Below, piece after piece: positions 1,650 to 15,829 of a stretch of DNA of 28,742 nucleotides. The notes below the pieces were generated by a model. The model had not been told where the DNA came from, did not search any database, and saw only the letters and a program-made list of their open reading frames with translations. This DNA is from a virus, in the IMG/VR virus record IMGVR_UViG_3300046516_001101, positions 1 through 28,742 of that record. One strand, 5' to 3'. A program made the translations under genes and the position numbers. Numbering within the stretch: the stretch's first letter is position 1; every line of letters starts with the position of its first letter.

Positions 1650-1904
1650 ATGGCATATAAAGATACGTTGACACTATATGACGAGCTTGTGGCTACTGGC
1701 ACTCCATCGGAACAGGCAAAGATAATAGCGCATCAACAAGGTAAATTGGCGAGCGATATGGAAAATGGTTTTAATGGATTGAATTTGACTCTAAACAAAA
1801 TAGAAAAAGATTTGAGTTGGATGAGAATCATTGGGGCCGGCATGGTAGCCGCTTATCTTACTAATGTAGCAGCAATTTTTGGACTTTTTGTATTATTTAA
1901 ATAA
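1650..1904 (+). CDS. small membrane-anchored helical protein, paralogue family A member 1
   Basis: This 84-aa protein has three parts: an N-terminal helical motif (residues 3-29, YKDTLTLYDELVATGTPSEQ then AKIIAHQQG), an amphipathic linker (30-57, including KIEKDLSWMR), and a hydrophobic segment (60-82) that should cross the membrane once. Four other genes here share the N-terminal motif (1918, 3495, 3694, 15467). It is closest to the 3495 protein, with which it also shares the KIEKDL-WMR-IGA stretch. The layout resembles small bacterial coiled-coil proteins with a C-terminal anchor (DUF1640 or Bdr-like), but I cannot confirm homology. GAGG lies about eight bases before the ATG; a longer in-frame start at 1527 lacks a ribosome site. 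Function unknown. Confidence 0.7.
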   Translation: MAYKDTLTLYDELVATGTPSEQAKIIAHQQGKLASDMENGFNGLNLTLNKIEKDLSWMRIIGAGMVAAYLTNVAAIFGLFVLFK

Positions 1905-1917
1905 TTTGGAGTTAAAA

Positions 1918-2073
1918 ATGGCGAAAATAGATACTTTAACAATGTATAAAGAACTTCTTAGTTCAGGCGCTACAAAAGAAGTGGCAAATACAATAGTAGT
2001 TCTCATAGATGAAATGCGTAAGGAACTTGAATCTAAAATTGATGCCCTGAATGATAAATTAAATAGGCGATAA
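1918..2073 (+). CDS. small soluble helical protein, paralogue family A member 2 (no anchor)
   Basis: This 51-aa protein starts with the family A motif (MAKIDTLTMYKELLSSGAT), followed by a charged helix rich in E, K and D with leucine and isoleucine at heptad-like spacing (residues 29-48). It stops before any membrane segment, so it looks like a soluble version of its neighbours. The ATG has GGAG six bases upstream and follows the stop of the previous gene by 13 bases. It could pair with the anchored members through the coiled coil; that is inference. Confidence 0.6.
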   Translation: MAKIDTLTMYKELLSSGATKEVANTIVVLIDEMRKELESKIDALNDKLNRR

Positions 2074-2076
2074 TCC

Positions 2077-2298
2077 ATGAACGAAAAAGACCCAGACGAA
2101 TGCCTTACAGCTCGCCTCAACGTAAAATGTCACCCAGACTTGTTGAAGTCTATTCGAAAGATTGCCAAGAAATCTGGAATCTATAAGACGTCTACAGTTG
2201 TCAGAATGTGGCTGACGGAATGCGTAGAAAGAGAACTGGCTAAGGATAATCTGGATGATAAAGGACAAAAGCCTAGAAAAGGTTATGTAAACCATTGA
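2077..2298 (+). CDS. small DNA-binding candidate, ribbon-helix-helix-like, 73 aa
   Basis: The segment at residues 10-55 (TARLNVKCHPDLLKSIRKIA, a KKSG turn, then a helix with TSTVVRMWLTECVERE) fits a ribbon-helix-helix pattern: a short strand, helix, turn and second helix, as in CopG/Arc or MobC-like proteins. Proteins of this fold bind operators or act as relaxosome accessories. The ATG comes three bases after the previous stop with only a weak purine stretch, so coupled translation is likely. It is the only obvious regulator candidate in the window and could act on the inverted repeats near 630 and 1515, but nothing in the sequence proves that. Confidence 0.55.
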   Translation: MNEKDPDECLTARLNVKCHPDLLKSIRKIAKKSGIYKTSTVVRMWLTECVERELAKDNLDDKGQKPRKGYVNH

Positions 2299-2301
2299 TA
2301 A

Positions 2302-2505
2302 ATGAATAGAGAAAACAAAATTGATTTAGTTGAGAAATTATTGCGATATCATTTTGAAGGGCACAACGCTACTTTAATGATGAATTGGTACTATGTGGCA
2401 AATAAAATAGTGTTTATGTTAGAGGCGTTTAATAAAACAGCATTACATGACAATGAAATGGAAATTTGCGAAAAGATTGCTGATACATTAAAGTGTGAAG
2501 AATGA
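2302..2505 (+). CDS. small unrecognised protein, 67 aa
   Basis: I do not recognise it. The protein looks wholly helical, with a central aromatic and hydrophobic stretch (NWYYVANKIVFMLEAF, residues 28-43) and an acidic C-terminus. It starts three bases after the previous stop and has no clear ribosome site, so it probably depends on coupling. Its stop overlaps the next start as ATGA. Membership in a five-gene chain with tight overlaps supports a real gene. Confidence 0.5.
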   Translation: MNRENKIDLVEKLLRYHFEGHNATLMMNWYYVANKIVFMLEAFNKTALHDNEMEICEKIADTLKCEE

Positions 2506-2771
2506 CCGATACTAAAAAACTAACAAAATGGCTAAACAATACTCAGGCTGTAATAGACATGTATTATATCGGTGAGAAATTTTATAGTCCTGATGAGTCA
2601 ATATGCCCACAAGAAGTTATTAATATTAAAAAATTAATTATAGAAGAGCTTTCTAAAATACATCCTATGATTTCTGACTCTTTATTAAACGAAATAAATG
2701 AACAGATAAGGATAGGGGTTTTTAATGCAAACGATTTACAAGTGTTTTTTAATTTAAATCTTAATGGATAA
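2502..2771 (+). CDS. paralogue family B member 1 (MTD-type helical protein), 89 aa
   Basis: No known domain is recognised. It begins MTDTKKL and contains KKLIIEELSKIHPMIS around residues 43-58, a pattern repeated in the next two genes and in the 5523-5723 gene (K-K-L-I-x-E-E-L-x-K-x-x-P-x-I-S). This copy is the longest, with an extra C-terminal segment ending in FFNLNLNG. It is probably a cytosolic helical protein. The start overlaps the previous stop (ATGA). Confidence 0.55.
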   Translation: MTDTKKLTKWLNNTQAVIDMYYIGEKFYSPDESICPQEVINIKKLIIEELSKIHPMISDSLLNEINEQIRIGVFNANDLQVFFNLNLNG

Positions 2772-2777
2772 AGAAGA

Positions 2778-2969
2778 ATGACCGACCGTGAAAGACTTCA
2801 ATGTGCTAAAAATATTTTAGATAAAATCATGATTGTTAATGAAAAGCTCAGCAGAAGTGAAAAGTTACTTAAAATTAGAGAATTGATTAAGGAAGAATTA
2901 GCTAAACCGGATCCTGTAATTTCAGGTTTATTGTCAAAAAATTCAAAAATTTGGGAGCGTAATGAATGA
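2778..2969 (+). CDS. paralogue family B member 2, 63 aa
   Basis: The family B pattern is clear: MTDRERL at the start, then SRSEKLLKIRELIKEELAKP and DPVIS (about residues 25-50). The protein is highly charged and helical with no membrane segment. AAAGAAG lies just before the ATG. The last bases overlap the next gene (ATGA). The tandem arrangement with members 1 and 3 points to local duplication followed by divergence. Function unknown. Confidence 0.55.
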   Translation: MTDRERLQCAKNILDKIMIVNEKLSRSEKLLKIRELIKEELAKPDPVISGLLSKNSKIWERNE

Positions 2970-3163
2970 CCGACACTGAAAAGCTTAAGCTAGCTATTAA
3001 AGCGGTTGATATAATGCTTGCCATGGAAAAATTGAAAGAAAATAAAAAATTACTTAAAACTAGGAAGCTAATTTTAAAATCTCTTTCCCTTGATGAACCT
3101 ATTATACCAATTTCACTTCCTGCACCAATAGACTACCTTGTAATGTATGCACAATTTTCATAA
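2966..3163 (+). CDS. paralogue family B member 3, 65 aa
   Basis: It begins MTDTEKLKLAIKAVDIMLAM and carries ENKKLLKTRKLIL followed by an E-P-I-I-P stretch where members 1 and 2 have D-P or H-P. The C-terminus is less charged and ends in an aromatic tail. GGGAG lies eight bases before the ATG, and the start overlaps the previous stop. It is the last gene before a 178-base gap with inverted repeats. Confidence 0.55.
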   Translation: MTDTEKLKLAIKAVDIMLAMEKLKENKKLLKTRKLILKSLSLDEPIIPISLPAPIDYLVMYAQFS

Positions 3164-3178
3164 TTAGAATTATTTTTT

Positions 3179-3209
3179 CGTAATATAATACATAATATGT
3201 AATATTACG
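3179..3209 (+). repeat. long AT-rich hairpin after the family B genes
   Basis: CGTAATAT (3179-3186) pairs with ATATTACG (3202-3209), and inside it TACAT pairs with ATGTA around an AAT loop; two unpaired A bases interrupt the left arm. That gives about 13 base pairs. It follows the 3163 stop by 15 bases, so it may end or stabilise the upstream transcript, but there is no clean U-tract after it. A protein-binding site is equally possible. Confidence 0.4.
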
Positions 3210-3230
3210 TATTATTATGAAATAACGCTA

Positions 3231-3276
3231 CCCGAAAAAATAACGATTATTACCAGCGATAATTGGGGTTATCGGG
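3231..3276. promoter_or_regulatory. CCCGA...TCGGG inverted repeat in gene gap
   Basis: CCCGA (3231-3235) and TAAC (3241-3244) pair with GTTA (3268-3271) and TCGGG (3272-3276), the left arm being split by AAAAA. It lies 65 bases before the 46-aa gene at 3342. It may be an operator; the rest of the 3164-3341 gap shows nothing clear. The string ATAACCCC of its right arm (reverse strand) recurs in the divergent gap near 5453. Confidence 0.25.
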
Positions 3277-3341
3277 AGTAAATGAATTTTGTGAAATCGA
3301 AGTAGTGTAATATAGTAGACAACTTAGAAATAGGAGTGAAA

Positions 3342-3482
3342 GTGACTCAAGATGAAATAATTAAGTTACTAGATAGGGATACGTTAAAAGTAGTCAAAAG
3401 AACTCTCATTCTTGCAGAATTGACACTTATAATATCAGTGGTATCCATCATAATTTCTGTATATAGAATAGTAAATGACTAA
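3342..3482 (+). CDS. tiny single-pass membrane protein, 46 aa, GTG start
   Basis: This frame was found from its ribosome site: TAGGAG five bases before a GTG. The product has a charged N-terminal half (residues 1-20) and a strong hydrophobic segment (about residues 22-42, with LTLIISVVSIIISV), ending YRIVND, so it should be a bitopic inner-membrane protein. It is followed after 12 bases by family A member 3, which has a near-identical ribosome site (ATAGGAGTAAAA); together they suggest one transcript. Size and shape fit a small holin-like or exclusion protein, but there is no motif to decide. Confidence 0.5.
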   Translation: MTQDEIIKLLDRDTLKVVKRTLILAELTLIISVVSIIISVYRIVND

Positions 3483-3494
3483 ATAGGAGTAAAA

Positions 3495-3689
3495 ATGGCT
3501 TACAAAGACTCGCTAACATTATATGAAGAGCTTATCGCAACTGGCACACCGGAAGCACAAGCTAAAACAACAGCTCATCAATTGGGGGATGTAACTAATA
3601 TTCTTGTGAAAATAGAAAAGGATTTAATGTGGATGCGAGTTATAGGTGCTGCCATGGTCGTGGCTTTCATGGCTAACTTTTTTAGGTGA
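3495..3689 (+). CDS. small membrane-anchored helical protein, paralogue family A member 3
   Basis: This 64-aa protein is the closest relative of the 1650 gene product: MAYKDSLTLYEELIATGTPE, then a short linker with KIEKDLMWMR, then a hydrophobic segment (47-62) ending in NFFR. Compared with member 1 it has lost about ten residues of linker and the last part of the membrane segment. AGGAG lies before the ATG. The following gene, also family A, starts five bases after the stop codon. Function unknown; a membrane-facing role is inferred. Confidence 0.65.
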   Translation: MAYKDSLTLYEELIATGTPEAQAKTTAHQLGDVTNILVKIEKDLMWMRVIGAAMVVAFMANFFR

Positions 3690-3693
3690 AAAA

Positions 3694-4032
3694 ATGGAAT
3701 ATAAAGAATCGTTAAAACTATATCAAGAATTGCTTGAATCAAGTAAGAATGATGAACAATCTATTATTCATGCCCATATTATCCATAACATAAATTCAAA
3801 GTTAATTGAAAAATTAGATTTGTTGCAAACTGAAATCTCGAATTCATCGCATGTTATGAATGAAGCACTTATCAATCTATATTCGCATATTAACAAATCT
3901 CATATTGATAATTTTATAACATTAAATAGAATGGATAAAAAATTGTATTGGGCTTATGTTGTATGGATGATAATGGGGATAGTGGGCACTGTTAGTATTA
4001 TTTTGAGGTTATGTGGGTTAACTAGCTCTTAG
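3694..4032 (+). CDS. membrane-anchored coiled-coil protein, paralogue family A member 4, 112 aa
   Basis: This member keeps the N-terminal motif (MEYKESLKLYQELLESS), has a longer helical middle (20-80) and a hydrophobic C-terminal segment (about 85-106) with WMIMGIVGTVSIIL. The sequence TTTAGGTGAAAAA, which includes the previous stop, serves as ribosome site for the ATG at 3694; an upstream start at 3646 would lie inside the previous gene. Its last 11 bases overlap the convergent gene at 4022-4240. It is the last gene of the plus-strand island. Confidence 0.6.
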   Translation: MEYKESLKLYQELLESSKNDEQSIIHAHIIHNINSKLIEKLDLLQTEISNSSHVMNEALINLYSHINKSHIDNFITLNRMDKKLYWAYVVWMIMGIVGTVSIILRLCGLTSS

Positions 4033-4240
4033 CTTTATATTTTATTAACTCTTTTTCTGTTTCTTCATTAATTCGTTTAATCTCTTGATCACGTTTCGTT
4101 AGTATTTCTTGCATATCTTCGAAACTGAAAGCCATTAATATTTCTTCGGCTACAATATCATATTCACGTTCTATTTTATATGCTTGCAACTTTAGAAGAG
4201 ATTGAATAAGATCATCTAAAATTGAGCTTTCGTTCTCCAT
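4022..4240 (-). CDS. small helical protein, 72 aa, end of a five-gene run
   Basis: The product is almost entirely charged helix (for example KRDQEIKRINEETEKELIKY, residues 49-68), probably a coiled coil. Its start overlaps the previous stop by one base (TAATG). No family is recognised; it is more distant from the other four genes of this run and may not be their paralogue. It overlaps the convergent plus-strand gene by 11 bases at its end. Confidence 0.55.
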   Translation of the reverse strand: MENESSILDDLIQSLLKLQAYKIEREYDIVAEEILMAFSFEDMQEILTKRDQEIKRINEETEKELIKYKAKS

Positions 4241-4587
4241 TAAAACCCATCATATATTCCTGGCTTTATGCCTTTACGCTCGTAGTTATCAAACTTTTTC
4301 CAATTAGGGTCTTTCTCGCATTCTTCTAACAATTCTTTATGGCAATCTTTTAGTTCTTTAATCATTTTAAATGTAAATGGGTTCTCTTCGTCATTAAATT
4401 TAGAAAAAACATCCATAAATTCTCTATATTCCTTTTGATCAACCCAATGATTCTCAATATATCCAAGAGAATCCAAAACAATATAAAAGATGTTCATAAC
4501 GGCATGTTGGTCTAATGAATCTTCATATGGGTTAGAACAAATAACATCCAATATTGCCGATCGGATGATTTCTAGATATTTACTCAT
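4240..4587 (-). CDS. paralogue family C (M-x-x-Y-I-E-I type) member, 115 aa
   Basis: It opens with MSKYLEIIRSAILDVI, nearly the same as the next gene upstream (MNKYIEIIQSALQNAL) and the distant gene at 25883 (MYRYIEILKKIL). The remainder is acidic and helical, with several aromatic residues and a basic, glycine-containing tail. The start overlaps the preceding stop as ATGA. There is no membrane segment or catalytic motif, and the function is unknown. Confidence 0.6.
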   Translation of the reverse strand: MSKYLEIIRSAILDVICSNPYEDSLDQHAVMNIFYIVLDSLGYIENHWVDQKEYREFMDVFSKFNDEENPFTFKMIKELKDCHKELLEECEKDPNWKKFDNYERKGIKPGIYDGF

Positions 4588-4835
4588 TCCGAATCAACTG
4601 TTTCCTTTAGATTAACAAGCATATCCATAATGTCACTATTATTTCTAGACTCCTCTCTAATTGTATTTACAATCTCATGAAATCCTTTATTGCAATTGTA
4701 TGCCAAATATTCCATTGCGACATCAACAGTAGCAATTAACTTTATAGTCGTTTTTTCATTAATGGGATCTGAATAATCCTTACTTATTAGTGCATTCTGT
4801 AATGCAGATTGTATGATCTCGATGTATTTATTCAT
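4584..4835 (-). CDS. paralogue family C member, 83 aa
   Basis: The start at 4835 (MNKYIEIIQSALQNAL) is chosen because it aligns with the other family members and has GAGG about nine bases upstream. The in-frame starts at 4856 and 4844 would extend further into the upstream gene and have no good site. Even so it overlaps that gene by eight bases. The protein is acidic and helical, with no recognised domain. Confidence 0.6.
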   Translation of the reverse strand: MNKYIEIIQSALQNALISKDYSDPINEKTTIKLIATVDVAMEYLAYNCNKGFHEIVNTIREESRNNSDIMDMLVNLKETVDSE

Positions 4836-5148
4836 CTTCTTCATCCTCGTTTTCAATAGAAATAATATCTTGCAATTTGTCTAGCTTTTTAGATGTTCTT
4901 TTGGTTGATACTAGAAGTGATTTTAATTGTTGCATGGCAATTAGATAACTCTCTTCTCCATCTTGGTTCATATGATAACAATCAAAAAATTCAATAAAAG
5001 ATTCTATAATTTCGCCTTTAAGGTTATAAAGGCATATTGCCTGTTCAAGATCACCATAATCCGTCAAATCTAAAGTAGTTACTAGAGATTGTAAATCAAG
5101 TAAAGCTTTATGCAAAATTTCGATAAAAATTTCTAAACGAGTATTCAT
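4828..5148 (-). CDS. acidic helical protein, probable family C member, 106 aa
   Basis: The N-terminus (MNTRLEIFIEILHKALLDLQ) has the same spacing of hydrophobic residues as the M-x-x-Y-I-E-I genes downstream, so I place it in the family with less certainty. The C-terminus ends in a very acidic run (IENEDEEDE), which encodes the ribosome site of the next gene. Its start shares one base with the previous stop (TGATG). Function unknown. Confidence 0.55.
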   Translation of the reverse strand: MNTRLEIFIEILHKALLDLQSLVTTLDLTDYGDLEQAICLYNLKGEIIESFIEFFDCYHMNQDGEESYLIAMQQLKSLLVSTKRTSKKLDKLQDIISIENEDEEDE

Positions 5149-5429
5149 CAGTTCACCGTGACCGGTCTTTCATTGCTCTCTATCAAATCAATGACATCTT
5201 GTATAATCTTTTTATGTTCAACTAATCGTTCCATAGCTTCAACATTAGCCGCACTTCCACAATCAGAAAATTTACCCAAATATAATAACAATTCATTTAT
5301 AACTAATAATTCAAGTTTATATAAATGTAATCGAAGTGTAATATCTATATCATCTAGCGATTCGATATTAGGCATATGGGCATCAATCAATTCAATTACC
5401 TGAAGACAGGCTGGCATGTACCTATGCAT
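5148..5429 (-). CDS. helical protein, possible family C member, 93 aa, first gene of the run
   Basis: This leucine-rich helical protein contains an L-Y-K-L-E-L-L-V-I-N-E-L-L-L stretch in the middle. AAGGTGAATGAATT stands before the ATG at 5429. It heads the run 5429 to 4022, in which all genes overlap by 1 to 8 bases, so they are surely co-transcribed. A divergent promoter region (5430-5522) lies upstream. The relation to the other family members is weak and rests on size, helicity and position. Confidence 0.55.
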   Translation of the reverse strand: MHRYMPACLQVIELIDAHMPNIESLDDIDITLRLHLYKLELLVINELLLYLGKFSDCGSAANVEAMERLVEHKKIIQDVIDLIESNERPVTVN

Positions 5430-5522
5430 AATTCATTCACCTTACTTTCTGTTAATAACCCCGAAAATCTATTATACTAATTTTAGGTGACACAAACCAA
5501 ATCATCGGCAAAGGAGAGCGTA
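5430..5522. promoter_or_regulatory. divergent promoter region between 5429 (-) and 5523 (+)
   Basis: On the plus strand TATACT (5473-5478) has TGTTAA 17 bases upstream (5450-5455). On the minus strand TATAAT (5471-5476) has TTGGTT 18 bases upstream (5495-5500). The two -10 boxes overlap, so polymerase could start in only one direction at a time. The -35 matches are weak. Confidence 0.35.
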
Positions 5523-5723
5523 ATGACTGAGTCTGAAATATTATCTGATTTAGAGTTTGTTGTTGATAGGCTGCTAGAGCTTAGAGAGTGGGATTGCTCT
5601 AAAAAAATAGAATGTATAAAAAACTATATTGTGGAACAAAGCGTGGAACAAGTCCCAATATCTATAAATCTAGAATATGAATTTAATTCTTTACGGAGGA
5701 GTCAGGCTTCATCTCGCGCTTAA
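5523..5723 (+). CDS. paralogue family B member 4 (MTE-type), 66 aa, isolated on the plus strand
   Basis: MTESEILSDLEFVVDRLLEL, followed by KKIECIKNYIVEQ and a P-I-S motif, matches the family B layout of the tandem at 2502-3163. The start at 5523 has AAGGAG seven bases upstream; the frame is open further back to 5487 without a site. Its 3' end overlaps the convergent gene at 5683-5997 by 41 bases, so one gene's tail encodes the other's. It is a lone plus-strand gene between minus-strand operons. Confidence 0.5.
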   Translation: MTESEILSDLEFVVDRLLELREWDCSKKIECIKNYIVEQSVEQVPISINLEYEFNSLRRSQASSRA

Positions 5724-5997
5724 AATCCATTTCATATGTAGGATATCTAAACTCAATTATAGGAATAATAGGCTCAACTTCTTCCTCTGCTTCATAAAAA
5801 TTCACAGTAATTCCAGTTTCATGCTCTATGATTTTTTCAGCATAAGTTTCTATTAACTTAGCATTTTTATTCCCTTTAAAAAAGTGACCAGCGCAATATC
5901 CGGTACATAGAGCAAGAAGTAAAATCACGAAGAAAATTATCAAATGATTCCCAGGAGAAATAAGTTCTTTAAGAATTCTAGGTATTAACTTTCCCAT
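5683..5997 (-). CDS. single-pass membrane protein next to the lysozyme-like gene, spanin- or holin-like candidate
   Basis: The 104-aa product has a short basic N-terminus, one strong membrane helix (about residues 18-40, with LIIFFVILLLALCTGYCAG), then a charged 60-residue tail with a proline-rich acidic middle (EEEVEPIIPIIEF). It overlaps the end of the lysozyme-like gene by 13 bases. A one-helix protein directly after the endolysin is the usual place for an inner-membrane spanin (Rz-type) or a holin. The tail is not a clear coiled coil and I see no embedded Rz1-type lipoprotein frame, so the role is provisional. Confidence 0.5.
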   Translation of the reverse strand: MGKLIPRILKELISPGNHLIIFFVILLLALCTGYCAGHFFKGNKNAKLIETYAEKIIEHETGITVNFYEAEEEVEPIIPIIEFRYPTYEMDFKREMKPDSSVKN

Positions 5998-6464
5998 ATG
6001 TGAGAAGCATATTTATTGTAGTTTTCTATATATTCCTCTGGAGTAGCTTTCCCCATAATAGTATTGTAATACTTTTTATAATAAGCGGCCTGCCCTGGCA
6101 AATCTTCAGGAATTTCAGCTGGAAATCTATGATAATGTAGCCTACAAACAAGGCACATGAGTTTCATATTCCAAAGCAGAGTATTAAATTCTGGAACAAT
6201 CTCTAAACTCAATACGGATAGGAACCTTTGTTTCAAGTTTATATCAAACATAAAAGAATCAGTTATTACATTTTTATAAGTATTATATTCACATTGAAAA
6301 AAACCTAGAGCAGGCCCGGTGCCTTCTTGATGTATGAACGTAAATTGGCTTTCTTGACATCCAGTTCCAATGATAAGCTGGCAAGCTTCTTTTGAATAAA
6401 GTCCAACAGATTGTAATGTTGGTACTAAGATTAAGTCATTAAATTGTTTTATATTGATAGACAT
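5985..6464 (-). CDS. lysozyme-like endolysin candidate (phage muralytic enzyme)
   Basis: This 159-aa protein has the pattern GTGCQES at 33-39, then G-T-G-P-A-L-G-F-F-Q (48-57), a CRLHYHR block, and AAYYKKYYNTIMGKATPEEY towards the end. I recognise this layout from many podovirus proteins annotated as endolysin or peptidoglycan hydrolase with a lysozyme-like fold; E38 would be the catalytic acid. It has no signal peptide, so it would need a holin or act inside the virion. It starts directly after the stop of the 85-aa gene with no strong ribosome site, and the next gene overlaps its end. The other option is a structural muralytic protein. Confidence 0.6.
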   Translation of the reverse strand: MSINIKQFNDLILVPTLQSVGLYSKEACQLIIGTGCQESQFTFIHQEGTGPALGFFQCEYNTYKNVITDSFMFDINLKQRFLSVLSLEIVPEFNTLLWNMKLMCLVCRLHYHRFPAEIPEDLPGQAAYYKKYYNTIMGKATPEEYIENYNKYASHIWES

Positions 6465-6722
6465 TTAGGTATCTATATTAGAGCCAGTTCCAGGGATTCC
6501 AGAAGTTTTTTTTTCTGAAACAATTTCTTCTCCAACGGAAACAACATCGCTAATAACACCCACAACATTCTTAGCGGCTAAGTCCTGCTCAAATTTTTCC
6601 ATTTGCTGAAGCATAAATTGAGCCTCACTAAGTCTTCCAACTAACGCGTTATGTTGGGCTAAGGAATTCTCTATTGCTTTGCTGATTTCTGAAATTCGTT
6701 CAACTACTGCTTGTTTATCCAT
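6465..6722 (-). CDS. coiled-coil protein at the head of the lysis block, 85 aa
   Basis: Residues 5-50 read as one long amphipathic helix (RISEISKAIENSLAQHNALV and onward), followed by a valine-rich stretch and a flexible G/S/T tail. It has no membrane helix strong enough for a holin. GGAG lies before the ATG. It follows a probable terminator (6745-6763) and is contiguous with the endolysin-like gene. Chaperone-like or small structural roles are possible. Confidence 0.5.
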   Translation of the reverse strand: MDKQAVVERISEISKAIENSLAQHNALVGRLSEAQFMLQQMEKFEQDLAAKNVVGVISDVVSVGEEIVSEKKTSGIPGTGSNIDT

Positions 6723-6744
6723 GTGTACTCCAATTATGAATTAA

Positions 6745-6763
6745 GGGGGAAATCAATCCCCCC
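6745..6763 (-). terminator. terminator candidate after the 437-aa fibre gene
   Basis: On the minus strand GGGGGG-A-TTGAT-TT-CCCCC folds into a stem of five G-C pairs plus G·T and A-T, followed by TTAATTC. It starts 16 bases after the fibre stop. The tail is only partly T-rich, so termination may be incomplete, allowing read-through into the lysis block. Confidence 0.5.
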
Positions 6764-6778
6764 GAGCTCGAGTTACGA

Positions 6779-8092
6779 TTATACCATAGGAACAATCATG
6801 TAGTTAACAGCCCATCTGATTGAACTTGTGCCACCATTAGCTGTAAATGCACCTGTATCATTTGATAAGAATACACCTAAAGCTGTGGTCGTTGATGATG
6901 CTGTGGTTGCAATATTGGCACCATTCGCCAAGGTAGTCCATTGATTAACTGCCGCTGTTGTCGCAAATGTCGCAGCTACTGTCAAAGTACCACCGTTAGC
7001 AATAGTATTTACACCAGCACCGTGCACTGTATTTCCATATTGGAAAATAATTGCACCACCACCTGCGGGAGCCGCTGTAGCAAATACAATCTCAAGATAA
7101 GCGCTTAATACAAGAATTCCAAAACCGGCACCTGGTGTAGGAATCAATTGTACTGGAGTTGCATACATCCCTTGGAAATTAACATCAGTAATTGTTCCAG
7201 AGGCATTCAACTGAAGGCCGGCAACCGATACTCCAGAATCTACAATTTGACCTGCAACTCCGGAAGCCTTAATGAAGTTATTAGCCACTGTAGCGCCAGT
7301 AGTCACAGCTATATTTGATGTAGCAGCGCCAGCATCTGGTAGTGAATATACCGTACTTTGTCCAATATTTGCATTACTAAGAGTTGCAGTGAAATTACCT
7401 GCAATATTAAGAGGTATAATTGAAAAGCTACCATTAGCTGCAGTAATTGGGAATATGGTCAATGATGATGCATGTCCAGATGAACCTAGAGTTAGAGTAC
7501 CAACAGTTAAAGCTAAATTTCCAGTTGCTATAGTTTGAGTCGTACCACTATTAGTTAGTAAGAAGTTTGAACTAGCTCCCCCATCGGGAATAGTATATGT
7601 GCGCGCAGCAGCTTGAGAAGCATTTGTGATTGTAGTTATAGTATCACCCGCGCTAACAGCACCCACAATTTGAAGTGACCCTCTAGCGGCAGTGGCGGGA
7701 AATGAAATTAAAGCGCCAGCAGTACCACTTAATCCAGCCTGAATATTTCCACCATTGATAGCTGTAGCTGCATTTTCGCTAATGGTTCCAATGGTATTCG
7801 TAAAGGTCGCAATATGATTAGCTATCGTTGGCAGAATTACACTACTAGAATTAGCTGGTGACACCAAACTATGATTTGTTCCAACCAAAGAACACTGTAA
7901 CCACAATGGACCCGTAGATGATAAGACAAGCGCCATAGCACCGTTAGTAAATTCCATACCATCTTCAACAGATTTGTTTAAGTAACCTGCAGCGGTAATA
8001 GTTGCGAATGTATCATTAGTATCAATATAAATTAGTTTTGGAATAATACCTTCAAAACCGGTTACTTCAGTGGTCCATGATAAAACAGCCAT
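6779..8092 (-). CDS. tail fibre or appendage protein with internal repeats, 437 aa
   Basis: This is a beta-rich, alanine-, threonine- and glycine-rich protein. Residues 15-45 (GIIPKLIYIDTNDT onward to SVEDG) match residues 15-45 of the 674-aa fibre with 14 of 31 identical, so both probably share an attachment domain. A repeat of about 83 residues follows, each copy with FP-x-TAA-x-GS and a YTIPDGGASSNF-like end (128-178 and 211-262). The C-terminal 130 residues look like a distinct receptor-binding or oligomer domain. AGGAG precedes the ATG. Catalytic residues are not evident. The role as an adhesin or fibre comes from composition, repeats and neighbours. Confidence 0.7.
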   Translation of the reverse strand: MAVLSWTTEVTGFEGIIPKLIYIDTNDTFATITAAGYLNKSVEDGMEFTNGAMALVLSSTGPLWLQCSLVGTNHSLVSPANSSSVILPTIANHIATFTNTIGTISENAATAINGGNIQAGLSGTAGALISFPATAARGSLQIVGAVSAGDTITTITNASQAAARTYTIPDGGASSNFLLTNSGTTQTIATGNLALTVGTLTLGSSGHASSLTIFPITAANGSFSIIPLNIAGNFTATLSNANIGQSTVYSLPDAGAATSNIAVTTGATVANNFIKASGVAGQIVDSGVSVAGLQLNASGTITDVNFQGMYATPVQLIPTPGAGFGILVLSAYLEIVFATAAPAGGGAIIFQYGNTVHGAGVNTIANGGTLTVAATFATTAAVNQWTTLANGANIATTASSTTTALGVFLSNDTGAFTANGGTSSIRWAVNYMIVPMV

Positions 8093-8116
8093 TTTCTATT
8101 CTCCTAAATTAAATAC

Positions 8117-8197
8117 TTAAAGTTGGTAACCCTTTTTTTCCTTTGTTTCCTTTTTCTTCATATCCTTTTTTTTGTCTCTCATTCTCTGTTCCTTCAT
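8117..8197 (-). CDS. tiny lysine-rich peptide, 26 aa, doubtful
   Basis: MKEQRMRDKKKDMKKKETKE followed by KKGYQL. The start overlaps the previous stop as ATGA and AAGGGG lies nine bases upstream. Half of its residues are basic. It could be a genuine nucleic-acid binding peptide or a chance extension of a purine-rich run. Confidence 0.3.
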   Translation of the reverse strand: MKEQRMRDKKKDMKKKETKEKKGYQL

Positions 8198-8355
8198 TTC
8201 TTTTTCCCCTTTTTACGTTTAGATTTACCTTCCCCTGCTTGCGAATACGCTATAGCTACTGCCTGCTTTTGGGGTTTCCCTGCGTCCATTTCCGCCTTAA
8301 TATTCTGTGAAAATCCTTTCTTACTTTTTGCAGCCTTACCTTTTAAAAGTGGCAT
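8194..8355 (-). CDS. small basic phage protein, DUF6496-like, 53 aa
   Basis: MPLLKGKAAKSKKGFSQNIK is followed by AGKPQKQAVAIAYSQAGEG and a lysine-rich tail. The KPQKQAVAIA core is one I know from many small phage and bacterial proteins of this size. It starts directly after the stop of the related upstream gene, with GGGGAAG as ribosome site. It is likely a DNA- or virion-associated basic protein; its function is not established. Confidence 0.65.
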   Translation of the reverse strand: MPLLKGKAAKSKKGFSQNIKAEMDAGKPQKQAVAIAYSQAGEGKSKRKKGKKK

Positions 8356-8502
8356 TTACTTCCCCTTCTTCTTACGCTTACTTGTACCCGAATTTTTAAC
8401 AGCAATTGCTATTGCAGCTTTTTGTTTATCTCCAGAACCGCCTTTAACATTCTTGGAAAATCCTTTCTTGGTATTTTTCTTAGCACCTTTCACTAAAGTC
8501 AT
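8356..8502 (-). CDS. small basic phage protein, paralogue of the next gene, 48 aa
   Basis: MTLVKGAKKNTKKGFSKNVK is followed by GDKQKAAIAIAVKNSG and a K/R tail. It aligns with the 53-aa protein (KKGFS-N-K, KQ-A-AIA), so the two arose by duplication. AAGGGG precedes the ATG, which overlaps the stop of the transglycosylase-like gene (ATGA). Confidence 0.6.
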   Translation of the reverse strand: MTLVKGAKKNTKKGFSKNVKGGSGDKQKAAIAIAVKNSGTSKRKKKGK

Positions 8503-9227: not shown

Positions 9228-10828
9228 TATCTGACTCTCCGAGCATATATTCCGCCACATATAGTAGCTGAACCAGCGCCAAACACAACATATGCTGAAA
9301 TATAATATGTGGTTGTGGAAGAAATTGATGCTCTAACATACGGAACACATAACCCTAAATCTTGCGCACCTGCATTTACATTGGCAACAACATAAAGCGA
9401 TTGATCGGGAACCGTAGCACTTGTAGCCGAAATCCAAGCTTTATTATTAAGCATATTCAATCCTGAAGCATCAAAAGTAACATTTCCAAATATATCCCAA
9501 TCTCCAGCAGTTAAAGAAATTGATGTTAAATTTGTTGCTCCACCCGTTCCTATGTTAACAGCACTCGCAAATGCTATTCGACTTGAAATAAGCTCTCCAA
9601 CATAACCCGCAGCAGCATTTCCACCTGCTGTTGTTCCTTGAATGGAGCACCCAGAGTTTCCTTTACCGTTTAATGTCAATAAAACATTAGTGTCAGTACC
9701 AGTAGCTGCTATAGTTGGCGTATTTGTTGCTGAATTATTGGTAATGTTAATGTAATTAACGGCCGATGCTGTAACGGTAAATAGCAACAAACTATTTCCG
9801 TTATTATCCTGTATTCCTTTTGTTGTATTGAAGGGGATATTATTAGCAGCACCAACGGAAAGCTGGGAACTAGCAACAGCCAGACCTTGCCCAAAAGTTG
9901 TGGCTATCGATGGAACACCTGCCCCACTCGTAACCAAAATACCGTTATTTCCAGAAGTAAGACCACTTACGGCAGTTCCGCTTGTCGCATAATAGGCTAA
10001 TTGGTTTGCTGTTCCGCTATTTACAGTTCCTGAACCACCAGCCGCAACCCAAGTTCCATCACCTCTCCAAAATGTAGAAGAAGAGGCGCCAGTGCCTGAA
10101 TTTAAACTATTGACGCTAACCTGTACTGCTGAAGGTAGAGTTGTGGTTAATGAAGGAACTCCACCAGCGCTCGTAGCTAATACAGAGTTATTAGCAGTAG
10201 CCAATCCAACAATAACATTGTTACTACTAGAATAAAGCAATTGGTTTATTGTAGTAGTGGCGGGATATGTAGCAGTACTCCAAGCTGGTGCAGTATTAGA
10301 ACCGCTAAGTAAAGCCTGATTAGCAGTTGCGGTACCAGCAAGAATAGCGCCGGCAGAAGCCGTGCTATAGAATATTCCACCGTTTGATGCGGTCAAATTA
10401 GCATTCGTACCACCATACGTAAGCCCGATAACCGACCCATTCCAAGTTCCACTAGTGATTGTACCGACGCTAGTAATATTTCCTTGAACTGCAGCAGGCA
10501 ACGTTTGGCTTAAGCTTGGTATGCCACCGGCTGATGTAATTAATACAGAAGAGTTAGCTGTAGCGAGCCCTACGACATTATTAGCAGCGCTAGAATAAAG
10601 TATCTGATTGATAGTTGTTGTGGCTGGATAAACAGCTGTAGTCCATGTAGGCAGCGCACTAGCACCTTGTGAGGTTAAAATAGTGCCTGTAGCGCCAAGG
10701 CTTGCTAATGTCTGTATTGGATTAATAACCGTTGTGCCGGCACAGAGTATCCCATATGCGGTTGTCCAAGTTTTTACTTGAGTGCCACCTTCAATGACTG
10801 GAATTGGAGATATGCGCTTGTATGACAT
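9227..10828 (-). CDS. repeat-rich tail fibre protein, 533 aa
   Basis: The N-terminus (IEGGTQVKTWTTAYGILCAG, about 13-32) is a common phage-fibre start. The middle repeats a unit of about 110 residues: YPATTTINQ-LYSS, VGLATAN-SVL-TSAGG-PSL, TLP-AVQ. The C-terminal 130 residues (from AGYVGELISSRIAFASAV through SISLTAGDWDIFGNVTF to the last IYARRVR) match a C-terminal beta domain I know from many phage fibres, probably a trimer or receptor-binding tip. AGGGA precedes the ATG. It lies between the transglycosylase-like protein and a second fibre, all co-directional. Confidence 0.75.
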   Translation of the reverse strand: MSYKRISPIPVIEGGTQVKTWTTAYGILCAGTTVINPIQTLASLGATGTILTSQGASALPTWTTAVYPATTTINQILYSSAANNVVGLATANSSVLITSAGGIPSLSQTLPAAVQGNITSVGTITSGTWNGSVIGLTYGGTNANLTASNGGIFYSTASAGAILAGTATANQALLSGSNTAPAWSTATYPATTTINQLLYSSSNNVIVGLATANNSVLATSAGGVPSLTTTLPSAVQVSVNSLNSGTGASSSTFWRGDGTWVAAGGSGTVNSGTANQLAYYATSGTAVSGLTSGNNGILVTSGAGVPSIATTFGQGLAVASSQLSVGAANNIPFNTTKGIQDNNGNSLLLFTVTASAVNYINITNNSATNTPTIAATGTDTNVLLTLNGKGNSGCSIQGTTAGGNAAAGYVGELISSRIAFASAVNIGTGGATNLTSISLTAGDWDIFGNVTFDASGLNMLNNKAWISATSATVPDQSLYVVANVNAGAQDLGLCVPYVRASISSTTTYYISAYVVFGAGSATICGGIYARRVR

Positions 10829-10837
10829 TATTTTTCC

Positions 10838-12862
10838 CTACCAAATTTCATAACTAGTTCCATTAAATATGACATTTGCTGCCTCATATGCTGTGTTCAT
10901 AACAAATGTAGTTGCCCCATCAATCGTTACAGCACCACCTACAGTTGTTATAGTAATATTGCTTGTTGCCGCTAATCCGACTTTGTCTTTAATAACAAAT
11001 GTTCTCCCCGTTGTAGGTGCATTGGGTAACAAAACACTTATTACTCCGGCCGTCACATCACAAGAAATATAATAATCAGTAGATATTGCAGTATAAGGAG
11101 TTGATGCATTTGTTATGCCTGTGTATGACACAACATCTGAGCCAGAAAGAGCGGAAATAGTTATTGTATTATTTCCATTTACTATAGTAACGTTCGGTCC
11201 AGCTATAAGTGCTGCAGCAGCTGGAACGCCTATGGAACTCCCTATTACAATTTGACCGTCAGTCATTCCAGACGTCACACCAATAGCACTTACGCCATTT
11301 CCATAAAGCATTCCATTTTGTGTAAAGCTTGTTGCTCCAGTTCCGCCAATAGGAACTGTCACAGGTGTGAAGCCTGCCACTAAACTTCCAGCTGAAAGAG
11401 CGCCAACGCTTGTGATGTTCAATTGAACGGCAGAAGGTAATGTTTGGCTTATTGATGGAATTCCAGCAACATCCGTAACTAAAGTTGCATTAACAGCTGT
11501 AGCAATTTGTCCTACAACATTAGTGCCACTTGAATACAAAATATCATACTGAGTAGTTGTTGCAGGCCACGTTGCAGTAGACCAAGCGGGAGTAGAGGAA
11601 GCACCTGATTGCAACATTTGTCGAGCTGTTGCAGTTCCAGCAAGTATTTGCATCTGTGTAGCATTCGACCAAACTATGCCGCCATTTGATGCCGCTGCGG
11701 AAAGATTGGCACTTGTGCCACCAAATTGCAGAGAAATTACTGAAGCATCCCATGTTCCCGTGGTGATAACGCCCAAAGTGGTGATACTGGCCTGCCCAAC
11801 GTACAGAGGGTCAATATCGATTACTGGGTTCATTCCGCCAGTACTGGTTATACGTCCTGCAGTTCCAGTTACGCTTTGTACGCCTAAAGTTCCAAACTGA
11901 GACCAAACAACCGGGTCTGTACCTACAACCGTAATGGCAGCAGTTTCTATCCAAGCGCTATTAGCATTAACTGTTCCATTATTAACGATAATGAAAGAAC
12001 CTGGAACCATTGTAGCAGGAGTATTAAAATCAGTAGCCCGCGTTAATACCCAATTAGAAGCACCTGTGCCAACAGTCGTTAGAGTATAAATACCGTTCTC
12101 AGCTGGTGAAGACTGGTTTTTAATTAAGATTCTAGAATTTATTGGAGGTGAAGTTCCATCAATAGAAAAAGCAGCTTGAACTCCGGCATTTGTTAATGTT
12201 GCTCCAACTCCGGCAACACCATTATTGTATGTAGAATTAAGTGTACCTGTTGAGCCCGCATAAGCTGGAGATTTAAACGTAAACCCAGATGCAATACTAT
12301 CAACATATTGCTTAGTTGCCGCTTGTAATGGCAAGGTTGGGTTAGTGTTTAAAATCAAATTTCCGGTCATTGTTCCGCCAGCAATTGGCAGTGCGCCTAA
12401 ATTCGTTAATGCATTTGGCGCTGTTGTTGCACCTGTACCGCCATGCAAGATTGCAACAGTTGTTCCAGACCATGTTCCAGTAGTCACGACTCCAAGAGTG
12501 GTGATGGATGTCTGGCCGGGATACGTAGGAGAAATTGAAATCGTATATTGATTGGGAAGAGTTAGTGTCGCAACAATCTCATTAGGTGTTCCAAGAATTG
12601 AAGTAACAGTTCCCGGAGAACTTAAGGTCAAAGAATAGACTTCATTTTGAATAACAATATTATACCAACTCGGACCTTTATCTGACGTATTTACTAATGC
12701 CAACTGATAACTTGATAGGGCTACAAGCCCATCTTGTACCCAGCTACTTAGATATCCAGTCACTAATACTTGAGCTTGAGTATCATCCGTATTAATGAAA
12801 ACCATGGTAGGCAATATTCCTGCCTGACCGATTGGATTAGTAAATATCGATTTAATTGGCAT
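10838..12862 (-). CDS. large tail fibre protein, 674 aa
   Basis: Domains in order: an N-terminal domain (about 15-75) shared with the 437-aa fibre; a GTWSGTTVAILHGGTGAT repeat; the widespread fibre module with GGTMTGNL and ATKQYVDS (about 161-190) and SRILIKNQSSPAENGIYTLT (about 240-260); then repeats like those of the 533-aa fibre (STPAWSTATWPATTT, PSISQTLPSAVQ); and a C-terminal beta domain with RTFVIKD and ITITTVGGAVTIDG. I choose ATG 12862 over the adjacent GTG 12865 because AGGA is better spaced from it. It follows the 128-aa gene directly. The mosaic make-up suggests module exchange between fibre genes. Confidence 0.75.
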   Translation of the reverse strand: MPIKSIFTNPIGQAGILPTMVFINTDDTQAQVLVTGYLSSWVQDGLVALSSYQLALVNTSDKGPSWYNIVIQNEVYSLTLSSPGTVTSILGTPNEIVATLTLPNQYTISISPTYPGQTSITTLGVVTTGTWSGTTVAILHGGTGATTAPNALTNLGALPIAGGTMTGNLILNTNPTLPLQAATKQYVDSIASGFTFKSPAYAGSTGTLNSTYNNGVAGVGATLTNAGVQAAFSIDGTSPPINSRILIKNQSSPAENGIYTLTTVGTGASNWVLTRATDFNTPATMVPGSFIIVNNGTVNANSAWIETAAITVVGTDPVVWSQFGTLGVQSVTGTAGRITSTGGMNPVIDIDPLYVGQASITTLGVITTGTWDASVISLQFGGTSANLSAAASNGGIVWSNATQMQILAGTATARQMLQSGASSTPAWSTATWPATTTQYDILYSSGTNVVGQIATAVNATLVTDVAGIPSISQTLPSAVQLNITSVGALSAGSLVAGFTPVTVPIGGTGATSFTQNGMLYGNGVSAIGVTSGMTDGQIVIGSSIGVPAAAALIAGPNVTIVNGNNTITISALSGSDVVSYTGITNASTPYTAISTDYYISCDVTAGVISVLLPNAPTTGRTFVIKDKVGLAATSNITITTVGGAVTIDGATTFVMNTAYEAANVIFNGTSYEIW

Positions 12863-12864
12863 CA

Positions 12865-13251
12865 CTATTCCTGTATTGCGTAGAATTCGATTGTTACATT
12901 AGGAGTTACACCCGAAATAATATGGATAACATCTCCCGCTTGCACTACTCTTCCCCAAGGATTGTTGGCTGGAACCATTGCTGACGTTGTAGCTGCCAAA
13001 GTTCCACCAACAGGCTTTGCAGCTGTTGCATTGATGCATGCAAATACGGTTGCATCAGTTGTAATAATAGCCATGAACTTATTATTTACGGTTGCACAAA
13101 TATTACCCATAGCAGCAGTTAAAGGAACAGCTACTGTCGCTTCAGCATTAGCCGCTAAAGTTGTAGAAAATACATTTCCACAAAAATTTAACCCAAAACC
13201 ATCCACGCCTTTGTGGAACTTATCCATATTGTATTCTGTAACTTTTGCCAT
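12865..13251 (-). CDS. small virion-associated protein, 128 aa
   Basis: The protein is rich in alanine, threonine and valine with a beta-type pattern (TTLAANAEATVAVPLT, residues 30-45; VVQAGDVIHIISGVTPNVTI near the end). AAAGGAG precedes the ATG. It lies between the 701-aa appendage gene and the large fibre, so it is probably a fibre-linking, decoration or virion surface protein. No named family is recognised. Confidence 0.55.
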   Translation of the reverse strand: MAKVTEYNMDKFHKGVDGFGLNFCGNVFSTTLAANAEATVAVPLTAAMGNICATVNNKFMAIITTDATVFACINATAAKPVGGTLAATTSAMVPANNPWGRVVQAGDVIHIISGVTPNVTIEFYAIQE

Positions 13252-13268
13252 TTTTTAAACTCCTTTAT

Positions 13269-15374
13269 TTAAACACCAAGCCTTGCATCGGCGGTATAGT
13301 TAAAAATTATTCCATCTCCCAAAGCAGAGCCTACATTAGATGTTGCAGATACATTAAATTGCCTAGTAGTAGTTTGGTTAACAATTGTAGTGTTACAATC
13401 TGCCGTTATTGTCTTATCCCACATTTCATTATTGTTATTAACCGGATTATATATAATAATTGCCGGAGGAGTTACTTTAGTTGTTATAAAAGTATGACTA
13501 GGCGCATATATAGTTGACGCTGCAACATTAGCTTGAGCAAATGAATTAACTCCAACTAAAATACCTGTAGCTGGAACGGTTCCCGGTTCAAAGGACATTT
13601 CATAGTAATGCATACATCTTTGTTGGGCTATGCTTCCTGTTTCAGGAGCGGGTCTAGTTGGAACATTTCCTGGAACTAAAGAAATAGAATCTATATTTAC
13701 AACATTGGCTGCCGTTAAGGATGCAGTGCCAACCACTATCGCAAAGAATGTCGCAGTATTGGTTGCTGCAATACCATTCAAATCCCAACCACTAAACCCA
13801 TAGTTATTGAAATTAGTGGTATTAGGGCTAGCCCCTATTGTAAATGTAGCATCTCCAAGACCACTTCTAGGAACTTCAGACCAGTTTCCATGGAATGTTG
13901 CCGGCTTTCCTGTTGCGCTTAAGGTAGCAACAATAGAGTTATTAGCGGCACAGCTAGGTAACGCAGCATCAGTTGTATACCAGAGTGAGATTTTAGCTTG
14001 AAGACCTGCGACTTGATTAGTAAATGCAGCTACATTAACAGAATTACGGTCATTCAAAATCATTCGAGCTACAGATTGCTCGAGATATTGAACTAAAGCA
14101 AACTGTGTCGTATTAGTTGCCGTTATGGTCAAGCATCCATTAGTTCCACGTGAAACCGCTGGTCCACTATTGGCAGTCTGGAATACGATTGTCTGGTCCC
14201 ATACATATCGAGATGTGTTAGCACCGGCAGCACTTGCAGCCAGAGTAGGGCCTAAGAATTGCGTAGGGTTTAAGGCAAAGTCCCATCCAACTAGATAGCT
14301 AGAGATAGGCTTATAGGCCAAATCTGGAACAATGATATCGATTAAATCGGATTGCTGGAATCTAACTGGTACTTGCTGATAAGGAACGTTTTGAATGTTC
14401 GTTTCAATCCCTACAACCTGAATGCTTGTGATGCTAGATGGATTAACGGGAGATAAGACTACGTTAATATTAACAAAACCATTAAGACCAGTATCCGTAT
14501 TGGCAGCTGGCAATAGTTGAACAGTATTGGTGAACTGCCTATAGGCGCCAGATAAATTGGTAGTCGTTAACAACGTCTGAGGATTACCGGCAGTCACTTG
14601 AGATGGTGCATATGTAATGGTTGCTGTCGTATTGTTACCAAGGGTTATATTCGTTGCGATATAACCATTCATACCTCCAGTTGCTGGACTCCAGATGTCA
14701 GGCGTATGGTTTAAAGTCTGAGTAAGCGTCACCGCTGTAACATTGGATATAGGTGTAATATCCAATGTATAGGGAGGATTGGTTGGATATTGCGAAGAAC
14801 CTGCTACCGGCGTTTGGGCGACAGTAAGAGAGCCCGCGGCACTAAAAGTTACTGACAAACTCCACTCTGGCGCAATAGGTGTAACCACTGTTCCGGCGCC
14901 CCCTGATGATATCGTCAGGGGCGCGCCGGGCACAAAGGAAATAAACGCAAATTGAGGATTAGCGATTAAATTAGGGAGATATACACCAGATGCACCACCA
15001 TTACCCTGCTCACCGAAATAGTTCGGCCAAGCTTCACGAGTAAACTGAGGTACGGCTAAGGAATTCTGAACAACCACATAATATTGTTCGAGCACTGCGT
15101 CTGCAGCCGTTGAACTCCAAGGGAAGTAATAAAGAGCTACATTATCGCCATTATTGTTCTGGATGGTTCCCAGAGCGCTTAGTACGATTGGGTTAGGCAA
15201 TGCCGTGTAGGTATAGTTTGGAGGCGCGCCAGTAAGTTCGTAAATCGGTTTTAACGTATTGCGTGCAAGGTCTTGGTAAAAGTAGACGAAGCCACCAGCT
15301 AGAGGAGCACCTGTATCTTTGTCTAGTAGAAGAGGTTCCAGATCGCGGGATATTACATATCTACTGTCAAGCAT
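13269..15374 (-). CDS. large tail or appendage protein, 701 aa
   Basis: The N-terminal 125 residues (LEPLLLDKDTGAPLAGGFV and later PNYTYTALPNPIVLSALG, VPQFTREAWPNYFG) form a conserved head domain that I know from podovirus-type fibre proteins in metagenomic phages. The remaining 570 residues are beta-rich with several jelly-roll-like stretches (for example DIWSPATGG and the segment near VARMILNDRN), consistent with carbohydrate-binding appendage domains. No hydrolase motif is visible. AGGAG is seven bases before the ATG. A divergent plus-strand pair of genes (15467-15828) separates it from the ejection-protein block. Confidence 0.65.
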   Translation of the reverse strand: MLDSRYVISRDLEPLLLDKDTGAPLAGGFVYFYQDLARNTLKPIYELTGAPPNYTYTALPNPIVLSALGTIQNNNGDNVALYYFPWSSTAADAVLEQYYVVVQNSLAVPQFTREAWPNYFGEQGNGGASGVYLPNLIANPQFAFISFVPGAPLTISSGGAGTVVTPIAPEWSLSVTFSAAGSLTVAQTPVAGSSQYPTNPPYTLDITPISNVTAVTLTQTLNHTPDIWSPATGGMNGYIATNITLGNNTTATITYAPSQVTAGNPQTLLTTTNLSGAYRQFTNTVQLLPAANTDTGLNGFVNINVVLSPVNPSSITSIQVVGIETNIQNVPYQQVPVRFQQSDLIDIIVPDLAYKPISSYLVGWDFALNPTQFLGPTLAASAAGANTSRYVWDQTIVFQTANSGPAVSRGTNGCLTITATNTTQFALVQYLEQSVARMILNDRNSVNVAAFTNQVAGLQAKISLWYTTDAALPSCAANNSIVATLSATGKPATFHGNWSEVPRSGLGDATFTIGASPNTTNFNNYGFSGWDLNGIAATNTATFFAIVVGTASLTAANVVNIDSISLVPGNVPTRPAPETGSIAQQRCMHYYEMSFEPGTVPATGILVGVNSFAQANVAASTIYAPSHTFITTKVTPPAIIIYNPVNNNNEMWDKTITADCNTTIVNQTTTRQFNVSATSNVGSALGDGIIFNYTADARLGV

Positions 15375-15466
15375 GGAGAGACTCCTTTAGAAATAGTTTG
15401 CAAAGGTTGACCAATGGTGATACTATGGTTGATAGATAATTCAATATTTTTAAAGGAGCACTTATT

Positions 15467-15754
15467 ATGGCTGCTATTGACATTTTTAAACGATATGATG
15501 AACTGCGCGCGTCAGGTATACCCGACGAACAGGCTAGAGCCCAGTTAAACGTTATGGAAGATATGTTATCTACTATTGTGCAAAACATGGTTACAAAGAA
15601 CGATGTAAATTTAATGTTAAATTCTTTTTCTAAAGAATATAAACTAGAGACTATAAATGTTAAGTTAAATTTAATATTGTGGATAATAGGTCCTTGCGCT
15701 TTAAGTATTATTGGCGCTTGCATAAAATACATTTCAATAAAATATGGTTTATAG
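15467..15754 (+). CDS. membrane-anchored helical protein, paralogue family A member 5, inside the virion gene block
   Basis: This 95-aa protein has the family A motif (IDIFKRYDELRASGIPDEQA, residues 4-23), a helical linker (24-66) and one membrane segment (about 68-88, with ILWIIGPCALSIIGACI). AAAGGAG precedes the ATG. It is on the opposite strand to the surrounding virion genes and is followed by a 20-aa membrane peptide. A lone, oppositely oriented gene inside the late block fits a moron: an added gene, often expressed on its own to change host properties such as exclusion of other phages. A weak promoter may lie at 15400-15430. Function unknown. Confidence 0.65.
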   Translation: MAAIDIFKRYDELRASGIPDEQARAQLNVMEDMLSTIVQNMVTKNDVNLMLNSFSKEYKLETINVKLNLILWIIGPCALSIIGACIKYISIKYGL

Positions 15755-15828: not shown

Positions 15829-15829
15829 C

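Follow-up and report, generated by a model that had tools for sequence, protein, structure and literature searches.

Five small paralogous genes in a P22-like virus record

The DNA stretch analyzed here (hereafter the window) comprises positions 1 to 28,742 of the IMG/VR virus record IMGVR_UViG_3300046516_001101. It is a 28,742-base record encoding a P22-type portal and head closure protein, a major head protein and exonuclease VIII (exoVIII), and its bases 1-25000 gave no megablast match among 50,697 phage records. Portal, major head and head closure genes, assigned by PHROGs matches, lie on the minus strand together with the other virion genes. Opposed to them, as had been described in an earlier note made from the sequence alone, five small genes on the plus strand (A to E; Table 1) encode proteins with a common N-terminal head. 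All five translate at the listed positions, and a Shine-Dalgarno-like sequence (read by eye) was found upstream of each.

Sequence comparison showed that A-E are homologous paralogs of a single family. Hidden Markov models (HMMs) built from any four members and searched against the 796 stop-to-stop open reading frames (ORFs) of the window recovered the fifth at E-values of 3.3e-18 (A), 8.5e-6 (B), 5.2e-17 (C), 1.5e-8 (D) and 1.7e-6 (E), bearing out the proposed profile similarity for each of the five; the best non-family ORF reached 0.0041 when A was omitted and at least 0.26 otherwise. Over the first 30 residues, eight of the ten pairs exceeded all 5000 shuffles, and the scores of the pairs B-D and D-E were reached by 1 and 10 shuffles, respectively. 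A, B and C conform exactly to the motif previously given for all five, D-x-L-x-x-Y-x-E-L-x-x-[ST]-G; E deviates once (F for L) and D twice (E for D, S for G). It was also stated that four proteins end in a membrane helix and one stops before it, which agreed with hydropathy: the Kyte-Doolittle maximum (over 19 residues) lies near the C-terminus, after the stalk, in A (2.11), D (2.16), E (2.07) and, marginally, C (1.68), whereas the maximum of B is 0.99 and not C-terminal. An assembled membrane system, as proposed in the note, would be compatible with these features. The predicted single-chain models had low to middling confidence (pLDDT 60 and pTM 0.32 for E; 74 and 0.35 for A). Foldseek searches with the A and E models gave no match at E⩽0.001.

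Table 1 Features of the gene family and the E island in the window
Feature	Position	Strand	Description
A	1650..1904	+	84 aa; head, short stalk and C-terminal hydrophobic anchor; divergent from exoVIII
B	1918..2073	+	51 aa; paralog without anchor (soluble), immediately following A; PF07798 match below threshold (E 0.0057)
C	3495..3689	+	64 aa; minimal head and anchor, hydrophobicity marginal (1.68)
D	3694..4032	+	112 aa; altered head motif, long stalk, C-terminal anchor
Promoter-like element	15398..15426	+	TTGCAA-N17-TACTAT; 40 nt before E
E	15467..15754	+	95 aa; head, neck-like MVTKND, stalk and anchor; antisense island in late block
Micropeptide ORF	15766..15828	+	20-aa single helix, last gene of E island; prediction only

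Occurrence in related contigs

A portal scan yielded 106 relatives, of which the best 80 loci, many of them short fragments, were kept; the family HMM matched in 31 of them. Eighteen contigs among the 80 loci are at least 31 kb long. Four were already known to carry the family and 7 of the other 14 also matched, five of these with 5 to 7 matches each at E⩽0.1 and with a full head-neck-stalk-anchor layout in the copies read; the remaining seven had no family match at this threshold. An iterated HMM over the first 13 contigs (G000, which is the window, to G012) retrieved 37 ORFs at E⩽0.1. Four were pieces of two broken genes in the sister contig G001 (locus L005), leaving 33 copies, with 1 to 5 intact copies per contig. 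It should be noted that several of these contigs are fragments, and that the copies in G007 and G012 are cut by contig ends.

The sister contig (36,359 bases) is probably complete because it has a 127-base direct end repeat. It contains orthologs of A (L005:8485-8709, 63-65% amino-acid identity) and B as well as an extra C-like copy, and at the E position it has two genes, encoding a protein of 135 aa that has an anchor and a repeated stalk (E1) and an anchorless one of 64 aa (E2). Its C copy, 97% identical to that of the window, has an in-frame stop, and its D copy is interrupted by an insertion of ∼220 bases. The insertion (L005:10272-10490) has a hairpin-like terminal end and gives the impression of perhaps being a small IS605-type element. 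A relative of D with a degenerate head was found in G003 (L046:17234-17542, minus strand). Orthologs of B adjoin an A-type copy in G001, G002, G003 and G011. In total, six anchorless copies were identified (B of G000, G001, G002 and G003, E2 of G001 and one in G011), and all six directly adjoin a copy of the anchored type, a count that includes A-type copies with weaker C-terminal helices (at a Kyte-Doolittle cut-off of 1.6 the neighbour is anchored in three of six). The suggestion of repeated duplication with a soluble variant was therefore supported as far as a single paralogous family with recurrent anchorless copies is concerned, whereas the membrane system deduced from it is unproven.

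The stop and the insertion in the sister, together with the seven large contigs that lack a match, would fit selfish or neutral duplicates, that is, moron-like genes in antisense orientation that multiply and degrade while being of little benefit. However, dN/dS, which also speaks for the frames being coding, was 0.05-0.39 in 10 of 13 family comparisons between orthologs or paralogs (the other three were not computable, dS being saturated), the head is conserved in A-type copies of ten sequences, and gene positions are shared by phages whose portals are about 56-58% identical. We regard this explanation as highly improbable.

A small basic protein (MPLVKGKSKK...; L005:14742-14891, minus strand, and L044:3367-3513, plus strand) has a head that weakly matched the family HMM (E 0.03-0.05). 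It was not counted as a member.

Kinship with CCDC90-like proteins

CCDC90-like proteins are best known from mitochondria. On the basis of profile comparisons, the phage family is almost certainly a divergent branch homologous to CCDC90-like/DUF1640 proteins (PF07798), in which A-D are not textbook members as judged by the curated cut-off and the neck. Direct Pfam and PHROGs scans of A-E gave sub-threshold matches only. PF07798 was listed for 19 of 35 scanned family proteins, with alignments mostly starting at profile position 1-9. Such listings alone are weak, because similar scores were obtained for other coiled-coil families and because 12 of 14 control genomes also had PF07798 matches at E⩽1.

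Independent evidence came from a copy in G011, which led by tblastn (E 0.01) to a gene annotated as DUF1640 on a Ca. Megaera plasmid. The plasmid protein exceeds the Pfam cut-off (34.8 bits) and is 62% identical to UXM65466.1 of phage OP381185.1 (MAnkyphage_25.80), annotated as CCDC90-like. When these two proteins were used as an authentic pair in hhalign, the probability was 72% for A (E 3e-5), 88% for B (E 3e-6) and 95% for the E type (E 4e-8), and for nine control families taken from these phages it did not exceed 1.2%. A profile of ten neck-bearing phage copies reached 97.8% with the authentic pair and 98.5, 95.6 and 99.3% with the A, B and E types, respectively (control families, ⩽0.9%). 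D matched the A type at 96% and the ten neck-bearing copies at 94%. The beta-layer neck motif of DUF1640, given as [aliphatic]-A-T-K-[polar]-[DE] in excerpts of PMC4786415, occurs exactly in the E copies of G001 and G002 (MATKEE) and in a copy at locus L048 (FATKKD).

Several results weigh against this kinship. None of the five window proteins (best 17.0 bits) and none of the 35 family proteins (best 23.2) passed the curated Pfam cut-off of 33.5 bits; unrelated coiled-coil families scored equally for some copies (D against CoV_S2, 6e-4; E1 of the sister against Baculo_PEP_C, 5e-4), and the control genomes behaved as described above. The neck-like MVTKND of window E is one residue off the motif, and A-D have no neck. 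D directly matched the authentic pair at only 0.3%, and it thus joins the CCDC90-like branch only through its paralogs. The ten-member profile found coiled-coil noise and neither MCUR1 nor CCDC90B among PDB sequences, where the Ca. Megaera protein itself reached CCDC90B (6h9m) at E 0.15 only, and no tblastn match was obtained among the 50,697 phage records for A, E1 of the sister, the L048 copy or a copy at L061.

The window proteins share with CCDC90-like/DUF1640 proteins (MCUR1, CCDC90B, yeast Put6/Put7 and prokaryotic relatives) a homologous head, a coiled-coil stalk and a C-terminal membrane helix. They differ in being far shorter (51-112 aa) and sub-cut-off, in the missing neck of A-D and the missing anchor of B, and in the presence of several paralogs per small phage genome. 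Like the proteins of OP381185.1 and the Ca. Megaera plasmid, they are small and borne by a mobile replicon of phage or plasmid type, but OP381185.1 has one annotated copy, and the window proteins are remote in sequence, being linked to it by profiles and not by tblastn. Phages and prophages with a single DUF1640 gene have been published (excerpts of PMC5291501 and PMC3326045), and no report of multi-copy CCDC90-like arrays in phages could be found in the open-access literature searched. Thus, the kind is known, and known singly in phages; what appears to be new is that antisense islands carry multiple copies, in minimal versions and in versions devoid of neck or anchor.

Kinship with the Bdr proteins of Borrelia is suggestive. 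According to excerpts of the literature, Bdr proteins are small inner-membrane proteins with a variable repeat stalk and a C-terminal helix, present in several copies per cell; PMC10016077, as excerpted, places a bdr beside the replication locus in all cp32 prophages and calls Bdr function 'yet to be discovered'. The window family resembles the Bdr of cp32 prophages in size, stalk, C-terminal helix and copy number, and in having a copy near replication-type genes as one Bdr has at its replication locus. In a tblastn search, residues 5-102 of the L048 copy (L048:7455-7763), nearly its whole length, matched bdr (35% identity at best, E 0.02), with hits to 93 plasmid records, 92 of them from Borrelia/Borreliella; all 20 matches listed were annotated bdr. 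A profile of three Bdr proteins gave low values for A (21%), B (30%) and E (15%), compared with ⩽0.21% for the nine controls; the head alone gave 1-27%, and a good part of the L048 match falls in the stalk. Unlike Bdr, A-E had no KID-repeat family listed by Pfam (E up to 10), and their profile match is weak. The likeness to DUF1640 and Bdr noticed earlier as an impression of layout therefore turned out to be real homology for the former (hhalign 72-95%) and suggestive for the latter.

Genomic arrangement

Of the 14 contigs in which both were mapped, 10 have a family copy no more than 1 kb away from exoVIII, and in 9 of these the two genes are divergent. This arrangement would suit a membrane platform for phage DNA metabolism, in which tail-anchored oligomers tether replication or recombination complexes. 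The CCDC90-like gene of OP381185.1, which adjoins a replication initiator and lies near bet/exonuclease, and the location of bdr in cp32 prophages point in the same direction. On the other hand, other copies are remote from replication genes, as antisense islands of the late block, the variable copy number and the broken copies argue against an essential role, and some proximity is expected with several copies in a 37-kb genome. We consider such a platform rather unlikely.

The antisense copies of the late block stand before the portal gene and before the scaffold-like gene in several multi-copy contigs, and G012 also has a copy before its scaffold-like gene. The E position, between g15830 and g13269, is occupied by a family copy in G000, G001, G002 and G008, and the position of the island is thus retained in G008, where portal identity is only 56%. 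At this position G011 has a headless stalk-anchor protein (its g15830 counterpart was assigned by place, at 22% identity), and G003 has micropeptides only. Orientation is not universal, as the G006 copies and one G011 copy are co-directional with the virion genes. The promoter-like element before E was found with the same spacing and distance in G001 and G002 and is present in G003 but absent from G008 (four of five contigs), and it is conserved while most spacer bases change; it should be noted that the pattern was defined post hoc and that a generic sigma-70 scan listed no plus-strand site there. In all six contigs examined, the last gene of the island is a hydrophobic ORF of 19-27 aa that has a Shine-Dalgarno sequence. 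Its hydrophobicity is unremarkable in the window, since 7 of the 11 ATG ORFs there that are 18-30 aa long and carry a Shine-Dalgarno sequence likewise exceed the same hydropathy, and the case for the 20-aa micropeptide is positional only.

A long minus-strand ORF (15367-15870) runs antisense to E and is open also at the counterpart sites in G001, G002 and G008. Among the fetched ORFs, it matched those at the same place and, weakly, one antisense to A. Because the plus frame at E also matches copies at other loci, the plus frame was taken to be the family; the minus frame is possibly a by-product of codon use, although coding was not disproved.

Another plus-strand island (25372-25518 and 25511-25813) lies in the window between the scaffold-like gene and g25883, a junction at which relatives carry CCDC90-like copies.

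Divergence from the sister phage

Most virion genes of the window are 95-100% identical to those of the sister (g9227, 89%), and exoVIII and the CopG-like gene, which are next to A and B, are 98-99% identical with a dS of about 0.04. By comparison, identity was 63-65% for A, 67% for B, 32% for E and 72% over part of g17275, and dS was saturated for A and 0.85 for B. E adjoins g15830, which is as divergent as E itself; g17275 belongs to the same variable block, and late-gene order puts g17275, g15830 and g13269 at the place of the P22 ejection genes. The g15830 of the window is 60% identical to that of G003 and 25-28% to that of the sister, whereas the flanks show the opposite, indicating that the segment was exchanged by recombination. 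g15830 and g17275 (15830-18291, minus strand) were swapped as a block between otherwise near-identical phages. We also considered variability alone as a sign of an arms race, and rejected it, because a number of small genes unrelated to the family are equally variable.

Allele exchange, the expansion of paralogs (five contigs with 5-7 matches), the soluble copies adjoining those of the anchored type and one possible head/anchor chimera could be expected of counter-defence or host takeover, in which decoy coiled-coil or anchor proteins would mix with and disarm membrane-acting defences of the host or of prophages. The chimera signal, in which the head of A is nearer to sister A and its anchor nearer to C1 of the sister, amounts to a few percent of nucleotide identity only, and we think this role unlikely.

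Possible function

The proteins are very probably oligomeric and tail-anchored, as their architecture suggests. Each begins with an N-terminal helical head (D-T/S-L-x-x-Y-x-E-L-x-x-S/T-G), followed in some copies by a beta-layer neck ([aliphatic]-[AV]-T-K-x-[DE]), then by a coiled-coil stalk whose length differs between copies and, at the C-terminus, by a hydrophobic helix. Such chains would form coiled-coil oligomers with the helix in the inner membrane and the heads in the cytoplasm, and an anchorless copy would use its head and stalk to join or cap such an oligomer. An uncultured P22-like phage group carries several copies of tiny membrane-anchored rod proteins that are distant relatives of a mitochondrial and bacterial family.

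As the main function we tentatively put forward superinfection exclusion, by analogy and at clearly less than an even chance, with the platform for DNA metabolism and counter-defence following closely. The islands would be expressed independently of the late operon, and inner-membrane assemblies made early would hinder the DNA entry or establishment of competing phages, similar to SieA in working; turnover of paralogs and alleles would mirror changing targets. This function is favoured in view of putative inner-membrane rods made independently of the late genes, of paralog turnover and of an island beside exchangeable ejection-type genes. The low identity of A, B and E between phages with nearly identical virion genes, the retained island position in G008 and the conserved promoter-like element also count for it. 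Excerpts of PMC10883804 describe SieA of P22 as an inner-membrane protein of superinfection exclusion whose gene adjoins the ejection genes. The likeness is restricted to the proposed working principle, an inner-membrane protein encoded beside ejection genes; SieA belongs to temperate phages, and the island here sits between gp20-like and gp16-like genes and not between 16 and 9. Taken together, the explanation that combines CCDC90-like identity, membrane oligomers and exclusion is in our judgment about evenly balanced between right and wrong.

Some observations speak against exclusion by such assemblies. The anchors of A-type copies are weak, most of those outside the window being below a Kyte-Doolittle value of 1.6, and the broken sister copies indicate that some copies are dispensable. 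The ejection identity of g17275, g15830 and g13269 relies on gene order only, as no PDB or informative PHROGs match was obtained. Non-family small genes are as variable as the family (g4828 is 35% identical to its sister counterpart, and g2302 and g3336 have no match), and the near identity of C shows that variability is not family-specific. Finally, no tyrosine integrase was found in the 13 contigs and an HTH_3 repressor in only one, so a prophage-expressed exclusion role is not indicated.

The combination of stalk and C-terminal hydrophobic helix is also shared by XhlA (PF10779), which weakly matched two relatives (E 0.0031 and 0.016). A lysis module of holin-like or antiholin-like proteins, regulated by the anchorless copy and the 20-aa peptide, could explain this likeness, and no clear holin was recognised among the translations of the lysis-like cassette (5683-6722). 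The XhlA matches are, however, far under the cut-off (18.1 and 15.8 bits against 34.7) and of a kind explained by coiled-coil bias, and Pfam listed no XhlA match for A-E. A lysis role is less favoured because the window copies lie outside the cassette and on the opposite strand; it seems improbable.

Returning to superinfection exclusion, a more specific and doubtful version is that, in a clade of P22-like podophages, rods, anchorless partners and micropeptide constitute one dedicated inner-membrane system that is expressed from the antisense islands, co-evolves with the adjacent DNA-ejection proteins and gates phage genome entry. If true, it would provide the first assayable prokaryotic function for CCDC90-like, and possibly Bdr, proteins. 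In these small phages a single fold occurs naturally with different lengths, necks and anchors, which makes function testable in a simple setting.

Additional observations

Two scans for a host were made. The A-type scan of genome contigs gave 28 pattern matches and no confirmed relative. With the portal, two metagenome-assembled records were obtained; both lacked a family match, an empty result that is weakly informative. A phage-encoded outer-membrane beta-barrel gene is present in G003 (L047:6049-6669; PF13505, E 1.3e-9), and genes resembling it by sequence likeness only are present in G001 (L005:3871-4629) and G002 (L044:12250-12975).

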